Below the pieces are notes generated by a model. The model saw nothing but the letters and a program-made list of their open reading frames with translations. It was not told the DNA's origin and did not search any database. Both the position numbers and the translations under genes were made by a program. Shown piece after piece: positions 44,320-51,657 of a DNA stretch of 64,000 nt (positions are counted from its first letter, which is position 1; each line of letters starts with the position of its first letter). Where the stretch lies: assembly GCF_016917355.1 (NCBI RefSeq), contig NZ_CP070304.1, positions 1,736,001 through 1,800,000 on the forward strand, written 5' to 3'. This DNA is from Glaciimonas sp. PAMC28666 (GTDB taxonomy: Bacteria > Pseudomonadota > Gammaproteobacteria > Burkholderiales > Burkholderiaceae_D).

Positions 44320-46221
44320 ATGAGCAATACGCAAGGTCGCAGTAAAACACCTTTTACCTCAGCACGATTACATGTAATTACTCTCGGCGCCCTAGGTGTT
44401 GTGTTCGGTGATATCGGCACAAGTCCTCTGTATGCTCTGAAAGAAAGTTTTAGTCCGGACCACGGCATTCCCTTTTCGTCCAACGCCGTAATGGGGATCA
44501 TCTCCATGCTGTTTTGGGCAATTATGATCGTCGTAACGCTCAAGTACATTTACTTAGTGATGCGGGCCGACAATAACGGCGAGGGCGGTGTGTTAGCGCT
44601 GATGGCGCTCGCTTTACGCACTGCCAAAAATGGCTCGCCCTGGGCCAAATGGCTCATGATGCTCGGCGTGTTCGGGGCGTGTATGTTTTACGGAGACGTG
44701 GTAATTACCCCAGCAATTTCGGTGTTGTCAGCCGTTGAGGGTCTCGGCATCGCGGCCCCACAATTGTCGCATTACATTATTCCCCTGACCGTTGCGATCA
44801 TCATTGTCCTTTTCCTGATCCAGCGCCACGGCACTTCCATCGTGGGTAAGCTATTTGGTCCCGTGATGCTGGTCTGGTTTATTTCGCTAGGTTTGCTTGG
44901 CATTTATAACATTCTGAAAGCGCCGGAAATACTTGCAGCGGTCAATCCGTACTACGCTTTCCACTTTATGGTGCAGCATGCGCAGCTAGCCTTTGTGGTG
45001 CTCGGCTCCGTCGTACTGGTGCTCACCGGTGTAGAAGCGCTGTATGCCGATATGGGACATTTCGGTGTAAGGCCGATCCGCTTTGCATGGCTATACACCG
45101 TCATGCCTTGTCTCTTGCTCTGCTATTTCGGTCAAGGGGCCAACTTAATTGTGAACCCTTCATCGGTATCAAACCCGTTCTACTTAATGGTCCCGGACGC
45201 ATTGCTATTGCCGATGGTGATCCTGTCCACTTTTGCGACGGTGATTGCCTCGCAGGCGGTTATTTCAGGCGCCTTCTCGTTGACAAGTCAGGCCATTCTG
45301 CTGGGGTTCGTGCCTCGCATGCGTATTCTGCACACGTCAGAAGATGAGCGCGGCCAGATTTACGTGCCCGTCATTAACTGGATGTTAATGATATTGGTGG
45401 TCGCGGTGGTACTCGCGTTTCAGAAGTCCGATAATCTGGCCGCAGCGTATGGTGTTGCTGTCACCGCAACAATGCTGATTACCACGATGCTGTTAGCAGT
45501 AGTGATGCGCACGCTATGGAAATGGCATCCTCTGGCGGTGGCACTGATCATCGGCGCAATCTTTATCGTCGATTTTGGCTTCTTTGCCGCCAATTTGATG
45601 AAAATTCCCGACGGTGGCTGGTTCACGATTCTACTCGGCGCGATCACTTTTTTCCTCCTGATTACCTGGTACTCGGGCCGCATGCTTTTACGTGAGCGCA
45701 GTCAGGATGAAGGTATTCCGCTGGAGCCGTTCATCGAAGGCCTGCTGGCCCATCCGCCGCATCGGGTCGATGGCACTGCGGTCTTCCTGACCGGCAACAT
45801 AGCGACCGTACCGGTGGCGATGCTGCACAATCTGAAGCACAACCGGATATTGCACAAACGGGTCTTTTTCTTAAAAATCAGCATCTGGGATATTCCGTTT
45901 GTGGACGACGATAAACGATTGACGCTGAAAGAAATGGGCGGCGAGGTGTATCTACTGCGCGCAGCCTTCGGATTCAAGGAAGCCCCGGACGTCAACACGG
46001 TCATGAACCTGACGAATATCCAGTTTGGGCACGAGTTTGACTTAATGGATACATCGTTCTTCCTGGCACGCGATACGATCGTCCCGAGCAAATTACCCGG
46101 TATGTGGTTGTGGCGCGAGAAGTTGTTCGCCTGGATGTATGCCAACGGCGCTAAACCTTCCGACTTCTTCCATATCCCTATTAATCGGGTAGTGGAATTA
46201 GGAACTAAGGTCGAAATCTAA
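44320..46221 (+). CDS. kup: Kup, potassium uptake permease
   Basis: Proton-coupled K+ importer of the KUP/HAK family, 633 residues with about 12 membrane segments in the first 440 residues and a cytoplasmic C-terminal domain. The N-terminal signature [19 protein letters not shown] is intact, followed by [13 protein letters not shown] and [38 protein letters not shown] and the C-terminal [20 protein letters not shown] also match. It is monocistronic, with a near-perfect terminator behind it. Confidence 0.97.
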
Positions 46222-46283
46222 TATTCAGCATCATTTATCTGCCCGGTCCCTGAGCAATCAACCCGTAGCAGATGGGACATAAG

Positions 46284-46317
46284 AAAAAAAATGGGAGCCA
46301 GAGGCTCCCATTTTTTT
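46284..46317. terminator. Bidirectional intrinsic terminator after kup
   Basis: ATGGGAGCC, loop AGA, GGCTCCCAT: a perfect nine-base stem flanked by an A run on the left and seven T on the right. It serves kup (rightward) and the DUF3567 gene (leftward). Confidence 0.92.
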
Positions 46318-46393
46318 ATGGATATTTATTGTCCTGCAGTAAGTCATTTAGTGAATCGCTAATCAACCGCATTCAGCCATACACCGCAAAACT

Positions 46394-46651
46394 TTATTGC
46401 AACGTTACCGGCTGACTCATTAGCGAATCATAATTGCCAAGGAACGCATCTATATCTTCAATGGTAGGCTCGGAAGCAATGAGCTCTTCAACGCCCTGAC
46501 GAAAGAATTCTGCCAAAGCCCCTGCGATGAAAATTTCCCGTTTAAATGATTTATCAACAATTTCATAGCCGCCAAAGCGTAATGCTTCCCGTTGCTCGTC
46601 TACCCCAAATTCGACGACGCTGTATTGGTCACTGTTGTAGATCAGGTTCAT
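46394..46651 (-). CDS. DUF3567 family protein
   Basis: Small cytoplasmic protein of 85 residues belonging to the DUF3567 family of Burkholderiales. The conserved stretches GGYEIVDKSFKREIFIAGAL and IDAFLGNYDSLMSQPV are clear. No function is known. It is useful as a taxonomic marker and marks the edge of core sequence before the accessory operon at 47.4 kb. Confidence 0.88.
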   Translation of the reverse strand: MNLIYNSDQYSVVEFGVDEQREALRFGGYEIVDKSFKREIFIAGALAEFFRQGVEELIASEPTIEDIDAFLGNYDSLMSQPVTLQ

Positions 46652-47393
46652 ATGCGCTCCCTGTAAAGTTAGACAGAAGGTGATGATCGATAAGCAGTTT
46701 TCAAGCCAGCTCGCTTAAATATTTTGGTGCACTCCTTCGAATCAGAGTCAGACTAAAATCAAAACATCTCGTTTATATACTACGCCATAGCGCGTTTTTG
46801 TCACGCTTTTAATGCAAAACGTTAACGTCAATTGAAACCAAATGTGACGATGCGCCTTTTTGCGGGTAGAGTCCTGTTGTTTTTTTTGAGAGATGAACAA
46901 CAGAGTTACTATTTTAGCAAAAATCTCATCGAGAAATCGCCAGGCTAACTAAGCGATAAAAGTCAGGCTTCCGCATCACGAGGAACGCCCCCCGTTATTT
47001 TCCAAACTAAGGAAATTACCTAACTTAAGGCCCAAGCTCCTAAATTCCCCTAAAGCAAGGTTAATATTACTTCAGCTTCCGCTTTAAACTCATGCGAGTA
47101 TTTCTGAAAAAACACCCCTCGATTAACGGAAAACAGCGATCTCTTTAACCACCGAGAAAGAAATGAAAATCTTAGCAAATTCGATCAATCGGCAGCAGCA
47201 ATTGTTTCGATGCTCCTTTGCGCTGCAAATCACGCCAACAGTCGAGTACAAGAACAGAGATGCGCGATGTATGGCCTAACTGTTATGGCAACGCAGAACT
47301 GTGCCGCATCCGCTATTTAACCGAATCCTTATGCGAACTAATCAAAGTTTCAGCATGGGTAAATAACCAGAATTTTCGGAGTTCGTTAAGGCT
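46652..47393. other. AT-rich leader region of the accessory operon
   Basis: About 740 bases without a strong gene. A 38-codon frame at 47163-47279 (start after AGAAAGAA) is the only small candidate and is weak. An inverted pair TAAAGC (47051-47056) and GCTTTA (47081-47086) flanks an AT-rich core. No lux-type box was recognised. Confidence 0.4.
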
Positions 47394-47975
47394 ATGTTAA
47401 ATGAGACCAATGAAGTGATCGTGAAATCAGCAAATTTTACGCAGGCCCCGATCGCAGAAATACTCTCGTTCCGCAAAAAGCAATATCGGAACCGCCGACT
47501 TGATTATTTGTGTGAAATTGGAACCGTTGAAGAGGAGAACGAATCCCGCGTCGACCAACGAAGCCATCACTTCTGGGCTGAGTACAATTTTGAAATTATC
47601 GGCAGTCTGCGCACGACACCGCATCCGTTCGAGCTCACGGCGCTGGCCGCAGCTTTTAGCGAACTTGCGACCGCCTATCAAAGCCATCTTGAGTTTAGCC
47701 GATTTGTAGTACGAGCCGACACACAAAATCCAATACTATCCAAAAAGCTGCTTGAAAACGCTTTTTTATATGCTAGACAACAGTACTTAGGGGTAATTGC
47801 GGTGTGTCGTACTCCGCAAAGACGTCTTTTTGAAAGATTTGGATTGCGCGCCATTCATCAGACCGCCATCACATTACCAAAGCGCAATAATGGAGATTAT
47901 TGGATATTAGAAGGAAATTGCGATGAGGTTACTCGCTTCGTTTTAAACCGCGATGCTTCCAAAAACCATCTGTAA
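47394..47975 (+). CDS. LuxI/FeeM-like N-acyltransferase (GNAT superfamily)
   Basis: A 193-residue GNAT-fold protein resembling autoinducer synthases and the N-acyl amino acid synthase FeeM. Visible family points are SFRKKQYRNRRL (early Arg), DQRSHHFWAEYNFEIIGSLR (the D..S.HF...GxLR strand) and LEFSRFVVRAD, which matches the ExSRF element of LuxI-type enzymes. A C-terminal RRLFERFGLRAIHQ acyl-site helix follows. Such enzymes transfer an acyl chain from acyl-ACP or acyl-CoA to an amine. The acceptor is unknown. It is first gene of the accessory operon, 19 bp before the HDO gene. AAGG near the ATG is poorly spaced, with GGAG further upstream. Confidence 0.7.
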   Translation: MLNETNEVIVKSANFTQAPIAEILSFRKKQYRNRRLDYLCEIGTVEEENESRVDQRSHHFWAEYNFEIIGSLRTTPHPFELTALAAAFSELATAYQSHLEFSRFVVRADTQNPILSKKLLENAFLYARQQYLGVIAVCRTPQRRLFERFGLRAIHQTAITLPKRNNGDYWILEGNCDEVTRFVLNRDASKNHL

Positions 47976-47994
47976 ATACTTAAAAGGCGAACGA

Positions 47995-48738
47995 ATGCAT
48001 ACCGATGAAAACCTACTGGATTTTGATAGTTTTTTTCAGCAACTGGAAAATAAAGCAGGTACAGTGTGGAACGAAATTTTGGGCAAATCGCAATTGATAC
48101 AGGCGATTGAAAAAGGCAAAATCACCAAAGCCATGTATGCAATCTACATGATTGAGACCTACCACTATACCAGTCATAACGCGCGAAATCAGGTAATGGC
48201 TGGCACAAGAAATGACTGCAGCGATGTTTATACAAAATTTTGTTACCAACATGCGGCGGAAGAAGTTGGTCACGAGAAATTGGCTTTACACGACCTAGCG
48301 AGCATAGGATTGTGCGATATTAAGAATGCGGCTTTATCGTTACAGCGACCTCTTCTGGAAACCGAAAGTCTTATTGCATATTTGTATTGGATTTCGTTGA
48401 CTGGAAATCCCTTACAACGCTTGGGGTACAGTTACTGGGCAGAGAGCTGCTATACCTATATCAATCCGATGGTTACAAAATTGCGGAGTGCGCTTGGCCT
48501 TGAGCGATCGCAAATGACCTTCTTTATTGCTCATTCTGATATCGACACCCAGCATTTTGAAGACGTGAAAAATGTCATCCGACGCACCTGCAAATCGCAA
48601 GATGATTTGAATAGCATTGCTTACGTGATGGAGGTTACTTTACGAATGACCGGGAAAATGCTTGACGCGGTATATGGTGACTATGAAAACCTCATGGCGG
48701 GAAAGTCATCCCGCAGCTCATTTCTGAGTCATCTTTAG
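47995..48738 (+). CDS. Haem-oxygenase-like diiron oxidase/oxygenase (HDO; TenA/PqqC fold)
   Basis: All-helical protein of 247 residues from ATG 47995, which has AAGGCGAACGA upstream. The frame opens earlier inside the preceding gene. Candidate metal ligands of the HDO superfamily are in order: MIETYHYTSHN (Glu and His), HAAEEVGHEKLAL (Glu and His) and HSDIDTQHFEDV (Asp and His). HDO enzymes use a cofactor-like diiron site for N-oxygenation, C-C cleavage or desaturation of amino-acid-like substrates. Others of this fold, such as PqqC, use no metal, but the ligand set here looks complete. It precedes the DUF3419 gene by seven bases. Confidence 0.75.
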   Translation: MHTDENLLDFDSFFQQLENKAGTVWNEILGKSQLIQAIEKGKITKAMYAIYMIETYHYTSHNARNQVMAGTRNDCSDVYTKFCYQHAAEEVGHEKLALHDLASIGLCDIKNAALSLQRPLLETESLIAYLYWISLTGNPLQRLGYSYWAESCYTYINPMVTKLRSALGLERSQMTFFIAHSDIDTQHFEDVKNVIRRTCKSQDDLNSIAYVMEVTLRMTGKMLDAVYGDYENLMAGKSSRSSFLSHL

Positions 48739-48745
48739 AGCTCAG

Positions 48746-49819
48746 ATGGCAAGTTATTTCAAAAATTTGAATTACACAATGGGAGATGAAGATGCGAGCC
48801 CCGAGATGCATTTTTTACCCAATGGCAGCAAACATGTGATGGCAGTTGCCGACTGTGGCAGTCGCATAATCCCGCTGTTGGCGAAATATCCCGAGCGTCT
48901 CACTTGCGTCGACATTAATTCAGAACAGCTCGCTGTATGTGAAATGCGAATCGCACTGCTGCGTCACTGTGACCTCAAAAATTATAGGAGGTTTCTGGGT
49001 TATGAAAACAGCATGTGCAGCCTACAGCGCAAGAAAATCTTTTCCCAGCTTGATATTTCAATGGAGCGCAAATCCCTTCTTGAGGAGATGTTTAACAATA
49101 TCGAATGGGGAGCAATGCTCTACTATGGAAAATTCGAAAAAATGCTTAAAACATTATCCAATCTGATACGTCTAACGGTTGGCGTTGGCGCTATCGGTAT
49201 TTTTTCAACCAGAAATATGGATGAGCAAATTTCCTACTACCGCAAACAATTTCCACATCGACGGTGGGCGATAGCCCTCGCCTTATTAGCAAATTCCACT
49301 GCCTTAAATTCGCTATTGTACAAAGGTGACTATCCCAAAAAAAATATCCCCGGTACTTATTTCTCCATTTATAAAAATATTTTTCATCGCTTGTTTATGG
49401 AACAACCAGTGAAGGAAAGTTTCTTTTTGCAAATGATTCTTCTTGGAAGAATCGTATATCCAGAAGGGGATTTGATCGAGTGTTCCCCTAAAGTGTTTAG
49501 TCAGGCACAGCAAGGGGTGCGTCACTGCAAAGTAGATTTCGTCCATAGGGATATTTTTGACTCAGTGAGCAACGCAAAAAATGTAGATTTTGTTTCTATG
49601 TCAGATGTACCTTCATTCATACACTTAACTTCACATCACGAGTATTTAGAACGTATTAAACCTGGACTTGCGCAGGGGGCACTTGTTGCGGTGCGATCTC
49701 ACGTGCGCGTAATCCGACCCAACACCGACGGCTTTCGTGACGTTAGCGCAAGATATCTTGAACTGACCAAGAACGAGGCAACCCGACTCTGGTCGTTCCA
49801 TTTATACCAACGTCAGTAA
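48746..49819 (+). CDS. DUF3419/BtaA-like S-adenosylmethionine 3-amino-3-carboxypropyl transferase
   Basis: A 357-residue protein with the DUF3419 layout. A Rossmann-type SAM region has ADCGSRIIPLLAKYPERLTC, then VDINSEQLAVCEMRIALLR, which closely follows the BtaA motif VDxNPxQLALxELK, and YRRFLGYENS. The C-terminal acceptor-side region has SMSDVPSFIHLTSHHEYLER and GALVAVRSH. BtaA itself moves the aminocarboxypropyl group of AdoMet to diacylglycerol for betaine lipids. No BtaB N-methyltransferase lies nearby, so the acceptor is probably different. It is tightly packed between the HDO and AdoMet decarboxylase genes. Confidence 0.72.
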   Translation: MASYFKNLNYTMGDEDASPEMHFLPNGSKHVMAVADCGSRIIPLLAKYPERLTCVDINSEQLAVCEMRIALLRHCDLKNYRRFLGYENSMCSLQRKKIFSQLDISMERKSLLEEMFNNIEWGAMLYYGKFEKMLKTLSNLIRLTVGVGAIGIFSTRNMDEQISYYRKQFPHRRWAIALALLANSTALNSLLYKGDYPKKNIPGTYFSIYKNIFHRLFMEQPVKESFFLQMILLGRIVYPEGDLIECSPKVFSQAQQGVRHCKVDFVHRDIFDSVSNAKNVDFVSMSDVPSFIHLTSHHEYLERIKPGLAQGALVAVRSHVRVIRPNTDGFRDVSARYLELTKNEATRLWSFHLYQRQ

Positions 49820-49886
49820 GCACATTTCACTATGCCGCGTTGCCAGACAGCTTAGAGTCATTCAATTTTCTGTGGGGATAAATAAT

Positions 49887-50291
49887 ATGGAAGATACTGG
49901 TTATCACTATATTTTTGATTTTAAATTACATTCGAACCAAATTCTGAGTTCCCCCGTCGATCTTAATAGAATTTTCCTTGATGTATTGCGTGATTTCAAA
50001 GTGTTGAAATATGACTTTTTTAAATTCAGCGGCGGTGGTGAAGGCGTCACCGGCTTCTATTTGCTGTCAGAGTCACATTGCTCGTACCATACATATCCCG
50101 AAAGCAATTACATAGCGGTCGACATATTCACCTGTGGCCGAGATCCCGGGAATACGGGATCCGAACTAAGTAAAAGACTAGGGGCGCTAACATATTCCTC
50201 GCATTTCATCAAACGTGGTTCCCAAGCAATCACTTATACCGTTCCTACGTCCAGTTCGGAACCGTACGATGACAAAGCGGAGATTTTGTAG
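49887..50291 (+). CDS. S-adenosylmethionine decarboxylase, class 1b (SpeH/SpeD-like)
   Basis: Pyruvoyl enzyme producing decarboxylated AdoMet, the aminopropyl donor. The start is ATG 49887 after GGGGA; an in-frame GTG lies five codons earlier. The 134-residue length fits the small class. Catalytic points are intact: self-cleavage and pyruvoyl Ser in LLSESHCSYHTYPE, the His in the same strand (YHTYP) and the Cys in AVDIFTCG. A C-terminal IKRGSQAITYTVP follows. No spermidine synthase gene is adjacent, so the decarboxylated AdoMet may be consumed by another enzyme of this operon. Confidence 0.85.
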   Translation: MEDTGYHYIFDFKLHSNQILSSPVDLNRIFLDVLRDFKVLKYDFFKFSGGGEGVTGFYLLSESHCSYHTYPESNYIAVDIFTCGRDPGNTGSELSKRLGALTYSSHFIKRGSQAITYTVPTSSSEPYDDKAEIL

Positions 50292-50293
50292 TC

Positions 50294-50986
50294 ATGGAAA
50301 ATTCGGAAACACCCTATCCAGTACGAAAAAAATATCGGATAAAACGTATAGCTAAACGTGCTCATTACGATAAAGCCGACGTCAACGCAATTATCGACGC
50401 CAGTTATTTGTGTCATATTTCTTTCACCCAGAATAACCAGCCAAGCGCAATTCCAATGGCATGCTGGCGCGACGGCCTGTATATATATTTTCATTCCGCT
50501 AATAAAGGACGGCTGAGTAATCAGTTAGTAGGTAATAGCGTCTGTATTTCAATCGCATTGTTCGATGGACTCGTACTTGGACATAGCGCCTTTAACCACT
50601 CTTACAATTACCGCTCAGTCGTTATCCACGGGCAGGTTGAAGAAGTGGCCGACGAGCCCGACAAGGAAGCCGCAATGCGCACCTTTATGGAGCATATTTT
50701 ACCCGGACGCTGGTCAGACATCAGGCCTGTAAGTCAGAAAGAGCTGCGGGCGATTACGGTGATGCGGGTTAAATTAGAGCAGGTCGCAGGAAAAATTCGG
50801 GACGAATTTCCCGATGACGAAACCGATACGCCGAACTGGCCAACCTGGATCGGAGTCATCCCCTCAATAACGAAATTTCATGCGGCAGATGCCGATCCGA
50901 GTCGCAACAAAGTAGGCGCACCTCCCAGCTATATTGTCGAATACACTGGCATCGACGGACGACTCAGACCAAACAAAAAAAAATGA
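50294..50986 (+). CDS. Pyridoxamine 5'-phosphate oxidase-fold flavoprotein (NimA-like)
   Basis: A 230-residue split-barrel protein of the FMN-binding PNPOx superfamily. The start of the fold AIIDASYLCHISFTQNNQPS followed by AIPMACWRDGLYIYFHSANK resembles nitroimidazole-reductase-like and flavin-nucleotide-binding members. HSAFNHSYNYRSVVIHGQVE is typical of the subfamily. The ATG is two bases after the decarboxylase stop, so the two are coupled. It is likely an oxidoreductase acting late in the operon's pathway. The substrate cannot be read from sequence. Confidence 0.75.
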   Translation: MENSETPYPVRKKYRIKRIAKRAHYDKADVNAIIDASYLCHISFTQNNQPSAIPMACWRDGLYIYFHSANKGRLSNQLVGNSVCISIALFDGLVLGHSAFNHSYNYRSVVIHGQVEEVADEPDKEAAMRTFMEHILPGRWSDIRPVSQKELRAITVMRVKLEQVAGKIRDEFPDDETDTPNWPTWIGVIPSITKFHAADADPSRNKVGAPPSYIVEYTGIDGRLRPNKKK

Positions 50987-51036
50987 AAGGGGTTATCCTT
51001 AGCGCCTTGCCTTAATGCGAAGTACTCCGCGATAAC

Positions 51037-51657
51037 ATGTCGTCTAACAATACCCCTCCCCGAGCGCGATGCAATCGCTGCGTCCGTCCACTCGTCAGTT
51101 GTCTTTGCGAATTAATTCCGCTGCTCGACAGCCGCACGCGCATTTTGTTGCTGCAACATCCGAGCGAAACAGACCACGCCTTAAACACAGCGCGGCTGGC
51201 GGCATTGGGGTTAGTGAATGCGGAGTTATTGATCGGCGAAAAATTTCCCTCTTTGTCGCAATCCTTAACGCAACCGGGGTATCAAGCCTGTCTGTTATTT
51301 CCGGGGGAAGCCGCTCAGCCGGTGCATCAACATTTGAATCATGCTGAAACCACGCCTTTGTTGCTTGTGGTATTGGACGGCACGTGGCGCAAAGCGCGCA
51401 AGCTGCTGCACGTTAATCCGTTATTAGCGGCATTGCCTCGCGTCGTCCTTCCTGCAGGTTTACAGTCGCGTTATCGCGTGCGAAAAACACCCGCGCCCGG
51501 CATGGTATCGACGTTGGAAGCGATTGTTTGTGCGCTGAATTTACTGGAGGCACCGCGTAATTTTGAGGCGCTGCTGCTTCCTTTTGAGGTGCTCATTGAT
51601 CAACAAATTGCGGCAATGGGTGAGCAAACCTACTTGCGCAACTATCATCCCGACTAG
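51037..51657 (+). CDS. DTW-domain tRNA-uridine aminocarboxypropyltransferase
   Basis: A 206-residue DTW-domain protein, the family that transfers the 3-amino-3-carboxypropyl group of AdoMet to uridines in tRNA (acp3U, TapT/TuaA type). An N-terminal zinc-like region CNRCVRPLVSCLCELIP is followed by ILLLQHPSETDHALNTARLA and the DTW signature LVVLDGTWRKARKLLHVNP. RYRVRKTPAPGMVSTLEAI is also family-typical. Base composition returns to that of the core genome here. It is 50 bp after the accessory operon and may be read through from it, but it looks like a core gene. Confidence 0.9.
   Translation: MSSNNTPPRARCNRCVRPLVSCLCELIPLLDSRTRILLLQHPSETDHALNTARLAALGLVNAELLIGEKFPSLSQSLTQPGYQACLLFPGEAAQPVHQHLNHAETTPLLLVVLDGTWRKARKLLHVNPLLAALPRVVLPAGLQSRYRVRKTPAPGMVSTLEAIVCALNLLEAPRNFEALLLPFEVLIDQQIAAMGEQTYLRNYHPD

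Follow-up and report, generated by a model that had tools for sequence, protein, structure and literature searches.

A five-gene operon of Glaciimonas sp. PAMC28666 linking a DUF3419 alkyltransferase to SpeD, and a possible aminopropyl transfer pathway

Genes of the operon

We analysed a 64,000-nucleotide stretch of the Glaciimonas sp. PAMC28666 genome (contig NZ_CP070304.1, positions 1,736,001 to 1,800,000), hereafter the window, whose first letter is position 1 of the coordinates used here. At 47394-50986 lies a five-gene operon encoding, in order, an acyltransferase, a haem-oxygenase-like diiron oxidase (HDO), a DUF3419 alkyltransferase, a SpeD-type S-adenosylmethionine (AdoMet) decarboxylase and a flavoprotein. 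The main finding concerns the third and fourth genes: an aspartate in the AdoMet loop of DUF3419 accompanies speD, and may mark a change of alkyl donor. All five open reading frames are on the plus strand, with intergenic gaps of 19, 7, 67 and 2 bases when the ATG starts common to homologues are used (47995 for the HDO, 49887 for SpeD). The G+C content of the operon is 44.1%, compared with 51.3% in the rest of the window, and the HDO and DUF3419 genes have the lowest values among the 36 mechanically called window reading frames of at least 250 aa. At third codon positions the operon genes reach 44-48%, against 63% in kup, 57% in the DTW-domain gene and 55% in comM. A plus-strand leader of about 740 bases (46652-47393, 41.9% G+C), in which no gene was called, precedes the first gene. 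The first-pass annotation had described five tightly packed rightward genes with exactly these gaps, AT-richer than their flanks and behind a long non-coding leader, and this description was borne out; Pfam and NCBIfam also agreed with all of its family assignments, only weakly so for the acyltransferase.

The acyltransferase (47394-47975, plus strand, 193 aa) is LuxI/FeeM-like. It matched the FeeM profile at 2.8e-4 and 21.2 bits, under the 27-bit cut-off, and Acetyltransf_1 at 21.3 bits, barely over the cut-off of 20.7, while an NCBIfam scan gave no match; its relative in Aestuariibacter narrowly passed the FeeM cut-off (27.3 bits). The protein contains the blocks E-F-S-R and S-L-R-T-T-P, which we take to be of the LuxI/FeeM type. 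The first block, E-x-S-R, has the form E-[FL]-[SG]-R in 15 of the 19 homologues, and its arginine is kept in all 19. FeeM-type enzymes can acylate putrescine to give palmitoylputrescine. We also observed acyltransferase and HDO genes together where no DUF3419 gene is present. On Pseudomonas coronafaciens plasmid NZ_CP046442.1 (L005, 4099-9156), an acyltransferase-annotated gene stands immediately 5' of an HDO gene, accompanied by a phenylacetate-CoA-ligase-family gene, a flavodoxin, a transporter, a hydrolase and divergent anthranilate-synthase genes, and Agarilytica plasmid NZ_CP021746.1 (L006, 7398-8699) carries the bare pair.

The HDO (47995-48738, plus strand, 247 aa from ATG 47995) matched Haem_oxygenas_2 at 2.4e-18 and 67 bits (cut-off 28.9). 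With residues counted from the upstream ATG at 47953, E104, H107, E164, H194, D198 and H201 are conserved without exception among the homologues whose sequence extends over them (20 or 21 of 21 rows), and these six residues presumably bind the metal as in UndA. The window protein thus contains a three-His, three-carboxylate (3H/3C) ligand set, which is the common one in the HDO superfamily, a group with about a dozen validated members (PMC13108848). The closest structural relative is PDB 3dde (7.2e-72), a solved TENA/THI-4 protein of haem-oxygenase-like fold with no assigned function, and a possible template for modelling the active site.

The alkyltransferase (48746-49819, plus strand, 357 aa) belongs to the BtaA superfamily and matched the Pfam DUF3419 profile at 4.6e-21 and 75.9 bits, against a gathering score of 28.2. 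Its codons 36-39 (48851-48862, plus strand) encode Asp-Cys-Gly-Ser, which comparison of relatives identifies as a changed AdoMet glycine loop. In known aminopropyltransferases, an hhhhGGG(D/E)G loop forms part of the decarboxylated-AdoMet site (PMC11107197). The window loop, VMAVADCGS, has an acidic residue but no GGG, and the protein gave no match to PF01564, the SpeE family, up to E = 1.

The next gene encodes SpeD, a class 1b AdoMet decarboxylase (49887-50291, plus strand, 134 aa); the ORF list began at GTG 49872, but ATG 49887 fits the homologues. It matched AdoMet_dc (PF02675) at 3.5e-21 and 76 bits (cut-off 25) and reached 73.3 bits with TIGR03330, just under the stricter cut-off of 75.65. 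Ser63, His68, Pro71 and Cys83 are kept in all five SpeDs found in such operons, which share 47-71% identity over their ten pairs; Ser63, His68 and Cys83 are assigned to pyruvoyl formation and catalysis after PMC10407285. In the window genome (one contig, 5.23 Mb), the operon SpeD is the only PF02675 protein. Two proteins match PF01564, one an 821-aa membrane protein and the other of 282 aa, and neither has the GGGDGG loop of spermidine synthase, so that ordinary polyamine synthesis was rejected as the role of the operon. Decarboxylated AdoMet is therefore left with no canonical consumer found in this genome except the proposed DUF3419 enzyme; BpsA-type enzymes were not searched for.

The last gene (50294-50986, plus strand, 230 aa) encodes a PNPOx-fold flavoprotein that matched Pyridox_ox_2 at 9.5e-40 and 136.2 bits (cut-off 27), its nearest solved chain being 6rk0 (7e-40).

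Relatives of the operon and the AdoMet loop of DUF3419

We collected 21 loci with an operon-type DUF3419, which served as the query, so that its own presence in 21/21 is by construction. The HDO gene is adjacent in 21/21 and the acyltransferase was found in 19/21; none was found in L042, the sequence of L050 starts within the HDO gene, and that of L048 reaches about 0.95 kb upstream of its acyltransferase. L010 begins at a contig end 1.76 kb before DUF3419 and includes masked bases. The conserved core is thus acyltransferase-HDO-DUF3419, found in Pseudomonadota, Myxococcota and Bacteroidota, and SpeD, the flavoprotein and a hydrolase are variable. Because the core genes stand side by side in unrelated genera, their association is not due to chance, in agreement with the first-pass view of a dedicated operon. 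That annotation had looked to recurrence in unrelated species, which we found for the core; the exact five-gene set is not a unit of inheritance, with SpeD in 5/21 loci and the flavoprotein in 13/21. Acyltransferase and HDO may together form a module of greater age.

The five loci with SpeD are those of the window, a Deefgea plasmid, Trinickia, Corallococcus and genome G1411. SpeD lies 5' of the acyltransferase in Trinickia and Corallococcus, and 3' of DUF3419 in the other three. Trinickia has all five window families, with SpeD before the acyltransferase. On Deefgea piscis plasmid NZ_CP054144.1, acyltransferase, HDO, DUF3419, SpeD, an ABM-annotated gene and a serine hydrolase stand in a row, with an IS3 transposase gene before the operon and an IS30 one after it. 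A serine (beta-lactamase-family) hydrolase is found 3' in three of the five loci (Deefgea, Trinickia and G1411) and has, by eye, an apparent N-terminal membrane segment. An acyl-prodrug with a periplasmic deacylase is not claimed for the window, whose genome has no homologue of this hydrolase. The flavoprotein is of the Pyridox_ox_2 type in the window and Trinickia, and of the FMN_bind_2/PaiB-like type in L010, L012 and 9/9 myxobacterial SpeD-less loci; the two families share a fold.

A two-sequence DUF3419 alignment, run against genome contigs in one scan, gave nine of the loci (Trinickia, Corallococcus, three Pseudomonas, a Lysobacterales metagenome-assembled genome (MAG), Aestuariibacter, Flavobacterium and a Flavobacteriaceae MAG). 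Whole-genome searches, which were samples and not full censuses and counted the own genome where it was searched, found DUF3419 in 1/195 genomes of the family, 3/349 of the order (the own genome, G1411 and a distant fragment in G1465), 2/274 of the class (the other at 25% identity) and 1/398 of the phylum. In the Corallococcus family, 9/96 genomes gave 10 matches; in the Trinickia family, the Trinickia genome itself was the only one of 249; and in the G1411 family, 2/43 were positive (G1411 and G1522, the latter with the coordinates of the Deefgea plasmid). The remaining plasmid DUF3419 matches, at 22-24% identity, form a different group. The operon is rare and its occurrence scattered, a pattern expected of lateral spread, and it appears to have been passed on horizontally.

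Neighbouring genes differ among the SpeD-less loci. A class I/II aminotransferase and an AMP-ligase adjoin Pseudomonas L009, HlyD, an AMP-ligase and a penicillin amidase adjoin the Aestuariibacter locus, and a PlsC-like acyltransferase and a desaturase adjoin Flavobacterium L013. L042-L050, from Myxococcaceae-family genomes, hold a larger, SpeD-less version of the cluster, to which L043 adds an Asp/Asn hydroxylase, GNAT/FemAB-like proteins, a PaiB-like flavoprotein and a condensation-like transferase. On Rhizobium plasmid pMK-2 (L016, 2998-4071), a distant DUF3419 gene lies beside a CoF-synthetase-annotated gene, an MBL-fold hydrolase and an oxidoreductase; this cluster is a further uncharacterised use of the DUF3419 family.

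We then compared the AdoMet loop among these proteins. The loop reads A-D-C-G-S in all five SpeD-linked copies, compared with A-G-[SC]-G-[GA] in the 16 SpeD-less operon copies. Asp36 is thus present in 5/5 SpeD-linked proteins and 0/24 others, column 36 being Gly in all 16 SpeD-less copies and Gly (six) or Ser (two), never an acid, in eight distant proteins. Both distant proteins with Ser36 are BtaA-like, and one adjoins a methyltransferase gene. Across all 21 copies, 4 of the 357 positions (36, 39, 64 and 115) separate SpeD-linked from SpeD-less proteins, and two of them, 36 and 39, fall inside the loop. Among the 75 columns invariant in the 16 SpeD-less copies, column 36 alone has a different residue that is the same in all five SpeD-linked ones, and six other DUF3419 clades show no fixed change within positions 34-40. 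Because the nine myxobacterial rows include near copies, the 16 SpeD-less rows amount to fewer independent cases. The G1411 protein, found after the Asp36 rule was noticed and with a profile built from both types, fits the rule: its loop is A-D-C-G-S and speD is the next gene. Corallococcus exercitus has both forms, one with Asp36 and SpeD and one with Gly36 and no SpeD. These results suggest that the loop change favours aminopropyl transfer in the window enzyme and aminocarboxypropyl transfer in its SpeD-less relatives. The first-pass wording, an aminopropyl or aminocarboxypropyl unit, is thereby narrowed for this operon.

In the DUF3419 tree, which like the others does not include G1411, the first four SpeD-linked copies formed one clade with support of 81/83, which fell to 55/7 when columns 36 and 39 were masked. 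The HDO trees, from which MyxoL050 was left out, neither recovered nor rejected a SpeD-linked grouping (p-AU 0.16).

Insertion site, flanks and leader

The operon is flanked on the left by kup (44320-46221, plus strand) and on the right by a DTW-domain gene (51037-51657, plus strand), names that we assigned from the sequence. Four same-genus relatives were searched, and the DUF3419 gene is absent from all of them. The DTW gene was found in three, where kup, a small open reading frame and the DTW gene adjoin. G350 and G287 have no operon gene between kup and DTW. G327 (L060, 6138-6967, minus strand) retains a C-terminal fragment of SpeD and an open reading frame for the flavoprotein, which shares 69.6% identity with that of the window; the three core genes and the larger part of speD are gone. 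The operon was gained at, or lost from, the kup-DTW site within the genus. The flavoprotein of G327 has outlived the pathway, which would fit a protective (self-protection) or independent role.

An Rfam scan of 46200-51100 for riboswitches and small RNAs gave nothing above the gathering score, and the same interval has 7 promoter-like sites compared with 10.0 in shuffles, not above the shuffled level. A 33-base stretch of the leader (46999-47031) is 88% identical in the sister genome G327, where the surrounding DNA has diverged, and is possibly an operator.

Three other roles were considered and rejected. For phage cargo, no DUF3419 relative was confirmed in either of two scans of viral contigs, and the HDO was unmatched in phage records. 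For a defence system, the sole PADLOC match was a 17.7-bit Cas2a hit to the HDO, taken as chance. For a metallophore or canonical quorum sensing, no metallophore-synthase or LuxR family was found in the five proteins; the neighbouring genes were not searched.

Proposed pathway, alternatives and meaning

We tentatively read the locus, with a little under even confidence, as a laterally acquired biosynthetic operon in which SpeD feeds decarboxylated AdoMet to a donor-switched DUF3419 enzyme that places an aminopropyl group on an N-acylated, oxidised intermediate. In this pathway, the LuxI/FeeM-like acyltransferase would transfer a fatty acyl chain, with acyl-ACP as the probable donor, onto the amino group of a small acceptor, probably an amino acid. 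The diiron HDO would then oxidise the N-acyl intermediate by desaturation, C-C cleavage or N-oxygenation. SpeD would decarboxylate AdoMet, and the Asp36 DUF3419 would transfer 3-aminopropyl from it to a nucleophile of the intermediate, releasing methylthioadenosine. The flavoprotein may supply electrons, tailor the product or protect the producer. We infer every reaction of this pathway, its order, its acceptor and its product. That the operon builds an acylated small molecule is probable; of the classes named in the first-pass annotation, the product could be a signal, a metallophore or a lipid.

Several points weigh against this reading. The SpeD-linked DUF3419 copies may be one clade, with one or more origins possible, and the association of SpeD with Asp36 may be a single evolutionary event. 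G1411 shares its family with the record taken as Deefgea and is not a wholly independent case, and the contig end of L010 leaves an upstream SpeD possible there. Asp36 lies two residues before the acid of SpeE in a weak profile alignment (probability 0.6%). Trinickia has a single SpeD, that of the operon, and one PF01564 match (2.7e-42), and Corallococcus exercitus has a second SpeD besides the operon's, on a contig bearing a strong PF01564 match; with SpeE-type genes present, SpeD in these two genomes could also serve spermidine. Matches of the operon SpeDs to the second Corallococcus SpeD span 38-83 residues, that sequence being taken from an internal Met. The absence of SpeE is, moreover, the criterion by which converted SpeDs were found (PMC10407285).

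A product retained as a membrane aminolipid, similar to a betaine or ornithine lipid and made by a DUF3419 that alkylates a lipid as BtaA does, overlaps with the pathway proposed above and is rather improbable as an alternative to it. DUF3419 is the BtaA family, flavobacterial loci add the PlsC-like acyltransferase and desaturase, and aminolipids are made by two-step N- then O-acylation (PMC11631085). However, the window operon has no O-acyltransferase or BtaB-like methyltransferase, and the HlyD, AMP-ligase and penicillin amidase or serine hydrolase genes of other loci suggest an exported molecule.

For the speD gene itself, the main rival is a converted arginine or ornithine decarboxylase that makes agmatine or putrescine as the acyl acceptor, with DUF3419 transferring aminocarboxypropyl from AdoMet like BtaA; as a whole we consider this unlikely. 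Conversion is frequent where a SpeD homologue occurs and spermidine synthase does not (the search criterion of PMC10407285), a pattern that the window genome shows, and the acylation of putrescine by FeeM-type enzymes also speaks for this rival. The same paper reports a proline fully conserved in true AdoMet decarboxylases but not in arginine enzymes (PMC10407285). Pro71 sits in an HTYPE motif in 5/5 operon SpeDs, which would argue against conversion if Pro71 is this marker proline, and conversion would leave the Asp36 change unexplained.

We give still less weight to a reversed order, in which DUF3419 first attaches the aminocarboxypropyl group of AdoMet and the resulting adduct is then decarboxylated by SpeD. 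To our knowledge, SpeD-type enzymes act on AdoMet, arginine or ornithine and not on large adducts, which we count against it, and under this order the AdoMet loop of DUF3419 would not have had to change. Its net product would likewise bear an aminopropyl group, and the sequence of steps is that of route a, the one first proposed for microcin C (PMC10491745). Finally, Asp36 as a functionless lineage marker, with SpeD and DUF3419 uncoupled, could follow from a single origin but is very doubtful given the Gly of all SpeD-less and most distant copies in this column, the unchanged loops of the six other clades and the retention of SpeD through rearrangement to either end of the core.

The nearest functional parallel to the proposed aminopropyl transfer is microcin C, in which an AdoMet alkyltransferase other than spermidine synthase (MccD) and a decarboxylase (MccE) together aminopropylate a natural product; the enzymes are unrelated to those of the operon, and BtaA lacks homology to MccD (PMC10491745). 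MccE is a pyridoxal phosphate (PLP) decarboxylase domain, whereas the operon has a pyruvoyl-type SpeD, and additionally an acyltransferase and an HDO; no MccE-like PLP-decarboxylase family is found among its five proteins. BtaA of betaine lipid synthesis belongs to the same Pfam family, but BtaA-like outgroups are only 20-25% identical to the window DUF3419 and have Ser in the AdoMet loop where it has Asp, and no BtaB-like methyltransferase is found among the five genes; the rest of the genome was not searched for one. SpeE shares with the operon enzyme a SpeD partner and an acidic glycine-loop residue, and differs in the loop itself (GGGDGG against ADCGS) and in the family profile. The mycobacterial tyz cluster likewise has an N-acyl amino acid synthase whose product is then oxidised in an O2-dependent step (PMC10404671), although its oxidase is a flavin enzyme and not an HDO, and it has no AdoMet-alkyl step. 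FeeM and LuxI systems are alike in the weak profile match and the E-x-S-R block; the acyltransferase, however, stays below the FeeM cut-off, and the operon has no LuxR gene.

In the open literature, with most subscription papers outside the search, we found no report of this gene combination. A search for DUF3419 together with AdoMet decarboxylase gave nothing, and by titles and abstract starts, papers combining HDO with acyltransferase, AdoMet decarboxylase or N-acyl amino acid synthase contained no description of the operon. By the same measure, papers naming DUF3419 concern algae, betaine lipids and anther smut.

If the proposed pathway is correct, the operon would represent an unrecognised biosynthetic family in three phyla and on a plasmid, the HDO superfamily would gain a pathway with an unknown product, and SpeD, in a genome that yielded no canonical spermidine synthase, would serve something other than polyamine synthesis. 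Asp36 together with a linked speD would predict DUF3419 enzymes that transfer aminopropyl and not aminocarboxypropyl. With somewhat less than even probability, DUF3419 has yielded aminopropyltransferases of a second kind, distinct from the spermidine synthase family; we place our confidence in the donor switch below one half because the association may be a single event. By a Gly-to-Asp donor switch and the capture of speD, polyamine chemistry may thus have come to decorate an N-acylated, oxidised product or lipid.

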